DNA from: Gammaproteobacteria bacterium
GTDB lineage: Bacteria > Pseudomonadota > Gammaproteobacteria > Pseudomonadales > Azotimanducaceae
Direction: 5' to 3'
DNA: 64,000 nt
Assembly (NCBI GenBank): GCA_026705345.1
Contig: JAPPAV010000069.1
Location: 62,001 to 126,000, forward strand
Made by a program: the position numbers and the translations under genes. Shown one piece after another: positions 59,705 through 61,782 of this stretch (the stretch's first letter is position 1; every line of letters starts with the position of its first letter). The notes under the pieces were generated by a model, which saw only the letters and a program-made list of their open reading frames with translations, ran no database searches and had not been told where the DNA came from.

Positions 59705-59809
59705 ACCGCACGGTTACGACTCCTTCAAGGCGCCGACGGGCACGACCCGGCGCCAAGCCGAATTGGAAACCTAAAAGCCTGCACGTCGCCTGTGCCGCGG
59801 GCTCACAAA

Positions 59810-60217
59810 TCACCAACCGAATGTCGCCAGCATAAGGAGAATCCTGGCCACGACGAGCACGACAATCGGTGTTCCAACGATCAATATCAGGACGCCGAGG
59901 ATTGCGATGACGGTCTCGCGGCTAGGGCGGTTCAACCCGGGTTTGGCCAACGCCCTCGCGTTCGCAACCCTGTTGGCGTCTGCAATCGAGTCGAAGTAGC
60001 TCTTCGCCGTCGTTGTCTCGGGATACCTCTTCATGGCCCAGGCCATGGCGACGAACCATCCCACGAACGTCCAGCCAAGGAGCAGGTTCACCAGGAATAC
60101 CGGCCATAGTCTTGGATGCGACCGAAGTCCCGCGGCAATGGAGGGAACGAAGTATGCAAAGACGGACAGAATAATGCCGCCAAGGGAGAAGAGCGCAATG
60201 CCAAACTCAGGATCCAT
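59810..60217 (-). CDS. Superinfection-immunity-like (Imm_superinfect) small membrane protein
   Basis: ILSVFAYFVPSIAAGLRSHPRLWPVFLVNLLLGWTFVGWFVAMAWAM matches the family pattern; additional C-terminal TM. Confidence 0.7.
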   Translation of the reverse strand: MDPEFGIALFSLGGIILSVFAYFVPSIAAGLRSHPRLWPVFLVNLLLGWTFVGWFVAMAWAMKRYPETTTAKSYFDSIADANRVANARALAKPGLNRPSRETVIAILGVLILIVGTPIVVLVVARILLMLATFGW

Positions 60218-60334
60218 GCACCATGCGGCATCCATTCATGGTCCGAGCCTACCACCGTCGGGCCGGTTCAACGCCGACCGGCCAAGTCATCCGGTCGGGG
60301 TGAAGGCTATCCAATGAGTTGCGCAAGCACCCGG

Positions 60335-60838: not shown

Positions 60839-60941
60839 GTGTCAATCGAAGGCGGCGGATGCCCGAAAGATCCCGTTGTGGTTCCTCCCGATACCGGAGC
60901 GCAAGGTGTTCGCCGGTGCAGTTTTCAGTTGCCATTGACAC
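60839..60941. mobile_element. ~100-bp MITE-like element with IS21-type-looking ends
   Basis: Terminal inverted repeat GTGTCAAT (60839-60846) / ATTGACAC (60934-60941); minus-strand left end TGTCAATGGCAACTGAAAACTGCACC. Confidence 0.45.
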
Positions 60942-61056
60942 ATGCGGTTCGGGGAACTATTCCGCGGCGGATGAAAGGGGCGATGTTCGCCCGCCGGGCC
61001 GCCATTCCCCGCGATCCGTCCCGCCGCCCGACCTCGAACAGAACGCCGCAGGCCGC

Positions 61057-61131
61057 GCGTTTTCCACGCTTCGTCCACGGCGCCGGTCCCCAGACGAACC
61101 GGAGGCGCGGTGGGCGAAGGGTGGAAAACGC
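61057..61131 (+). repeat. Hairpin unit copy 1
   Basis: GCGTTTTCCACGCTTCGTCCAC ... GTGGGCGAAGGGTGGAAAACGC, 22-nt arms pairing 20/22; inner stem GCGCCGGT/ACC-gga-GGCGC. Confidence 0.8.
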
Positions 61132-61347
61132 AACTCCGCCTTGATTGGGGCGATGTTTCCGTCGACGGTCCCGGCGAACGTTCCCCGGTTCTGAAACGGG
61201 CCATGTTCCTTTCCGACGGCGCCCCCGCCGTCGTCGCAGTCGCCGGCGCGCCTGCCGAGTTGAAAGGGGCGATGTTCCCCGTCGGACGGGACAGGGTCCA
61301 ACCCGCGTGTCGTCGTATCCCAAGACCGTTTCCGACGACCCGGCCCC

Positions 61348-61422
61348 GCGTTTCCCACCGCCTGCCCACCGCCGCTGTGCTTGTCTGGGGGATCGCGTCC
61401 GTGGACAGCCCGTGGAAAACGC
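61348..61422 (-). repeat. Hairpin unit copy 2 (inverted)
   Basis: On minus strand GCGTTTTCCACGGGCTGTCCAC ... GTGGGCAGGCGGTGGGAAACGC; apical CCCCCAGACAA similar to copy 1 CCCCAGACGAA. Confidence 0.7.
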
Positions 61423-61490
61423 TCCCTGCGAAGCCCGGCACAGAGCCGGTTCCCTCAGCCGCGCGTTTCGACCCCTGCTCCAGCGCCGGC

Positions 61491-61564
61491 GCGTTTTCCA
61501 CGCTTCGTCCACGACGCGCCGGTCCCGACAAACCGAGGCGCGGTGGGCGAAGGGTGGAAAACGC
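61491..61564 (+). repeat. Hairpin unit copy 3
   Basis: Arms identical to copy 1 (61491-61512, 61543-61564); loop diverged but keeps GCGCCGGT/ACC-ga-GGCGC. Confidence 0.8.
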
Positions 61565-61782
61565 AACTCCGCCTTTGGCTGGGGCGATGTTCCGTCGACT
61601 GGCCTCGGCGAACGTTCCCTGGTTTTTCGTAAAGGGCGATGTTTACCTCCCGACGGCATCCGACCGCCATCGCGACCACCGGCGAGCGTGCCGATTTTTG
61701 GATGGGGCGAAGTCCGGTTCAGACTGGACAGGTCGCGGTCTCCGCGTTTCAACCGCCCGCACACCTGCGGCCGTCCAAGATC

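Follow-up and report, generated by a model that had tools for sequence, protein, structure and literature searches.

Insertion sequences of the IS200/IS605 group encode a Y1 transposase, carry imperfect hairpins near their ends, occur in several copies per genome and insert 3' of a short specific target. In the REP/RAYT systems (Nunvar 2010, PMC2817692; Quentin 2018, PMC6006769), an HUH/Y1 gene lies between two inverted palindromes, which are also found dispersed as well as clustered in alternating modules, the +,-,+ module being the basic BIME (Nunvar 2010, PMC2817692), and palindrome subtypes differ by position. TIRtrons have a RAYT-like transposase (TIRYT) between long inverted repeats that bear no relation to GTAG REPs; part of these repeats are self-complementary, and they form moderate families in dimers or clusters (Di Nocera 2013, PMC3733652). 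Given that REPs are short and old, RAYT-type hairpin movement and its cut site have so far been hard to show. Here, we describe an array from a window of 64,000 nucleotides (the whole stretch of DNA analysed), which belongs to an assembly of 5.07 Mb in 151 contigs. With a probability of about 0.83, we read it as transposon end signals in a BIME-like array that is non-autonomous, that is, as hairpins recognised by a transposase in the form of single-stranded DNA and not as regulatory RNA.

The array is a non-coding stretch of ~0.8 kb with three hairpins of ~75 nt in the order +,-,+ (Table 1). Folded as single-stranded DNA, hairpins 1 and 3 both reach -33.0 kcal/mol (z-scores -6.9 and -6.6, respectively) and hairpin 2 reaches -23.7 kcal/mol (z-score -4.3), and for each of them none of 200 shuffles was as stable; hairpin 2 exceeds its shuffles on one strand only. 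A direct duplication with an offset of 433-434 bp contains hairpins 1 and 3. The original prediction, made from the sequence of the window, had placed the hairpins, their strands and the duplication correctly. It had drawn the repeated element too narrowly, as the homology to other genomic copies reaches beyond the hairpins on both sides, and it had overlooked a second repeated motif of 18 nt, hereafter box A (consensus TTGAAWNGGGCGATGTTC), the core of which occurs six times in the array, either exactly or with one mismatch. Several copies of the element also have the sequence GTGCAGTTTTCAGTTGCCATTGACA or a close variant at their edge, in one orientation or the other (window 60916-60941; L074:4215-4240; L059:879-937); it is perhaps the terminus of another insertion sequence.

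Table 1. Features of the composite array (positions within the window)
Feature	Position	Strand	Evidence
Composite array, with homology to the other copies in the genome	60942..61735	.	outermost blastn matches to copies in the same genome, at 60942 and 61735
Box A core GGGCGATGTTC, 5' of hairpin 1	60978..60988	+	
Hairpin 1 (type 1)	61057..61131	+	covariance model, 97.7 bits
Box A core GGGCGATGTTT, at conserved distance 3' of hairpin 1	61148..61158	+	
Box A core, one mismatch (GGGCCATGTTC)	61198..61208	+	
Box A core GGGCGATGTTC	61267..61277	+	
Hairpin 2 (type 2, inverted; GGCTG/CAGGC mid-stem)	61348..61422	-	covariance model, 82.2 bits
Hairpin 3 (type 1)	61491..61564	+	covariance model, 76.7 bits
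Box A core GGGCGATGTTC, at conserved distance 3' of hairpin 3	61582..61592	+	
Box A core GGGCGATGTTT	61634..61644	+	
Decayed box A (GGGCGAAGTCC), near right edge	61705..61715	+	read from sequence; homology to L058 extends to 61735

Both strands have long open frames that run through the array (e.g., 279 codons at 60925-61764), as would be expected of a protein-coding gene with internal repeats. However, long chance frames are common at high G+C, no Pfam or NCBIfam match was obtained, the repeats alternate in strand, and both the hairpin lengths (71-76 nt) and the distances between hairpin and box (17-27 nt) vary by amounts not divisible by three. A coding gene is thus extremely unlikely, in agreement with what had been claimed at the outset.

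The hairpin belongs to a multi-copy family. A covariance model built from 41 hairpins retrieved 36 distinct ones on 19 contigs of the same genome, a count which is a lower bound since most of them sit within ~1 kb of a contig end; many of the breaks between contigs of this assembly are due to the element. Copies with up to 100% identity are dispersed over different contigs, and the +,-,+ module of the window recurs at L058, L061, L073 and L074. At one of these, between two array hairpins, a fragment reads like an IS21-type helper ATPase (L073:610-860, contig C123 of the same genome). Within the 41-hairpin alignment, 90% of the pair counts are standard pairs, and 13 of the 29 pairs vary on both sides (e.g., CG/AU/GC at column 4 and UA/GC/AU at column 8), giving 81 cells with both-side changes versus 23 in shuffles; none of 500 shuffles was as high in cells or score, and slid controls were far lower. 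The subtype of the middle hairpin (type 2, 10 of the 41 rows) contributes ten of the both-side changes at several columns, and this share of the covariation may go back to a single inherited event. The stem irregularities noticed in the window are kept throughout the family, with G opposite G in 38 of 41 copies and the two T:G wobbles in 36 and 33. The polarity proposed on their account also holds, the forward strand folding better than the reverse one in 39 of the 41.

The original prediction had pointed to a possible HUH/Y1 transposase, and such genes were found, in several copies and flanked by hairpins, both in this genome and in relatives. The product of the gene adjoining several hairpin copies carries the motifs DDHAHFLVEA and YVLLNARKH and matches Pfam Y1_Tnp above the cut-off; the matches to NCBIfam NF047646 (REP_Tyr_transpos) reach an E-value of 5e-11 with 42.6 and 45.8 bits, under the cut-off of 80. 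The YVLLNA motif is present in every transposase copy read, and a C-terminal tail of ~80 residues has no Pfam match. With a mean pLDDT of 51, the AlphaFold model is a weak one, and only the fold assignment was used; its best solved matches in Foldseek were ISDra2, IS608 and RAYT 4er8. A search of the PDB by sequence returned no match below E = 1. Approximately 20 copies or fragments of the transposase were counted in the genome, many of them cut by contig ends; one transposase gene is located at C132:37193-37969. A second, different Y1 transposase lies on another contig (C29; L078, ~900-1960; 37 bits to Y1_Tnp), adjoining tandem copies of a classical-looking REP (GTAGGGGACGGGCTTGTCCCGTCCC, GTAG head); it appears that this genome also carries a conventional REPtron.

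A scan of genome contigs found relatives, most of them in gammaproteobacterial MAGs with the names COS, RHO and SB0670, which, judging by these names, would come from sponge metagenomes. The transposase was found neither in the 95 order-mates (at 1e-10) nor in the 398 other genomes of a 399-genome phylum sample (at 1e-12), and plasmid searches with protein and DNA gave no match. Five transposase-bearing MAGs have 5-22 hairpins each, counted by place. In these as well as in the genome of the window, hairpin pairs in inverted orientation flank transposase genes or their remnants (e.g., L107, L112, L117, L152 and L163). In the relatives, an inverted hairpin with box A lies upstream of the transposase gene and a second hairpin, without box A, directly downstream. 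The hairpin family covaries, flanks multi-copy HUH/Y1 transposase genes related to RAYT and IS200, and occurs mainly in genomes that bear the transposase. Among the order-mates, only G077, from the same family, has hairpins (n = 3). Each lies just upstream of one of three paralogous DUF222 genes (L128, L129, L130; L222-L224), and the homology between these copies stops ~12 nt past the hairpin; the DUF222 genes are possibly other cargo using the same end.

It could be argued that the hairpins are old transposon ends that are no longer acted on, i.e., decayed IS remnants spread passively by recombination or amplification. Many of the transposase copies are indeed fragments or contain stops, several units are truncated or internally deleted, and no Y1 transposase was detected in G077 next to its hairpins. 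Against this, an intact open frame of 259 codons adjoins one array, hairpin copies are up to identical on different contigs, compensatory changes maintain the fold, and presence differs between close relatives, which makes passive spread unlikely.

The latter point can be seen at the locus of the window itself. The gene order ADH, PPK2, gap and alpha/beta hydrolase is conserved in relatives, with all three genes present in G099 (L182), and PPK2 and the hydrolase in G096 (L181) and G100 (L183), and in none of the three syntenic gaps was the array or any box A found. The homology with these relatives ends near 59761 and restarts at 61781, and therefore more than the array differs at this locus. 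The missing region also includes, in the window, a small membrane protein with the Pfam domain Imm_superinfect, a superinfection immunity domain (59810-60235, minus strand). Other insertions are common to several species, for instance near rpsL, as read from its translation, in L062, L155 and L164. The original prediction had left a choice between a repeat and a structured-RNA family. As an RNA, noncoding or cis-regulatory, the hairpins would be kept for their RNA function and the link with the transposase would be incidental; covarying stems with conserved wobbles suit RNA as well as single-stranded DNA, and the shared insertions next to genes such as rpsL could be read in the same way. Yet no Rfam family matched the window at the gathering score, the orientation alternates within one array, the hairpins are inverted around the Y1 gene, the copy number is high enough to break contigs, the array is absent from the three syntenic relatives and the distribution is very restricted. 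The repeat half of the claim is thus retained, while an RNA function appears very unlikely, more so than passive spread.

Box A provides a further element of the end signal. On the better-folding strand, it starts 17-27 nt 3' of the hairpin in 50 of 91 hairpins, and in none of the 91 does it start 28-70 nt after it. The spacer between the two is poorly conserved, and conservation drops after GATGTTC. A GAACA located ~16-25 nt 5' of the hairpin is the complement of the TGTTC with which box A ends, and it occurs in 21 of the 49 hairpins linked to a box versus 3 of 41 others; as a guide pairing with the box it was rejected, since whole subgroups lack it and its occurrence follows homology, and we keep it as a lead only.

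One clean site shows the junction. The empty orthologous site in G096 (L189) reads TTCGATGTTCCCTCCC, while in G099 (L157) the left flank ends in TTCGAT and is followed by ~285 bp with one hairpin, ending in TTGAATGGGGCGAT and followed by GTTCCCTCCC. In other words, CGAT^GTTC in the empty state corresponds in the occupied one to CGAT, a unit ending in GGGGCGAT, and GTTC. Since the unit ends in GGGGCGAT, the box A motif marks the unit end. The left part of this unit has no match to other units. Further orthologous sites were recovered by concatenated-flank searches, most of them diverged, decayed or deletion derivatives. By analogy with the IS200/IS605 scheme, the junction fits an insertion 3' of CGAT of a unit that itself ends in CGAT; a 4-bp CGAT target duplication may account for it equally well.

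Under our preferred reading of transposase-recognised end signals, a transposase encoded elsewhere in the genome would bind the hairpin folded from single-stranded DNA, probably while the DNA is being replicated, its tyrosine would cut at the CGAT within box A, and the unit would be rejoined 3' of a CGAT at another place. Repeated insertion, together with recombination at the boxes, could then have produced the tandem boxes and the +,-,+ array. A Y1 enzyme that acts in trans, recognises a polar single-stranded hairpin and cuts at a nearby box would explain why the hairpins are polar and covary, why they stand inverted around the gene, and how both the +,-,+ modules and the tandem boxes came about. 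From the one site, CGAT would presumably be the general target, and we infer that the system chooses its targets in this way and is active at present. Beyond this, we tentatively propose, at somewhat below even odds, an undescribed Y1 lineage (DHAH / Y---NA) with its own end signal, formed by a long polar hairpin and an 18-nt box 17-27 nt downstream that holds the cut site CGAT, spreading in a probably sponge-associated gammaproteobacterial clade. If this is true, it would be a natural system in which RAYT-like hairpin-mobility junctions can be read from genomes: the repeat is long, polar and still linked to multi-copy transposase genes, and the orthologous empty site offers CGAT^GTTC as a candidate junction.

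We found no report of this element among open-licence papers. The family had been called uncharacterised, which is right for the sequence family but not for its kind, as REP/BIME arrays with RAYT, and likewise TIRtrons, are known. Our best reading, by analogy, is that the element works like REP/RAYT or IS200/IS605. With REP/RAYT it has in common the gene between two inverted palindromes, their dispersed and clustered +,-,+ occurrence and the positional subtypes. However, the hairpin is 75 nt long with arms of ~28 nt (20-40 bp in REPs), the 5' GT[AG]G head of REPs is absent from the flanks of the 91 hairpins by inspection, DHAH and YVLLNA stand in place of the class 2 motif Y---NP, NF047646 is not reached at its cut-off, the transposase is multi-copy, and the hairpin is followed on its 3' side, within a narrow range of distances, by a separate box. 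The arrangement of TIRtrons, with a RAYT-like transposase between long, partly self-complementary repeats in dimers or clusters, is also shared, but their GGGGWSAS motif is absent, the box here being GGGGCGAT, and a long covarying hairpin with a box at a fixed distance is not described in PMC3733652; the TIRtron transposase is of subclass 2.1 with an HTH-like C-terminal domain, to which the tail of ~80 residues here, which has no Pfam match, may or may not correspond. As in IS200/IS605, there are a Y1 transposase, imperfect hairpins near the ends and several copies per genome; insertion 3' of a short specific target may also be shared, as a working model from one clean site. In contrast, the hairpins face in opposite orientations, the motifs DHAH and Y---NA differ from the DH[VI]H and Y---Q of TnpA subclass 1.1, a C-terminal extension is present and sequence similarity is far lower. 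Because GT[AG]G, Y---NP, the NCBIfam cut-off, GGGGWSAS and Y---Q all fail to apply, we set the element apart as a new variant, and not a member, of REP/RAYT, TIRtron or IS200.
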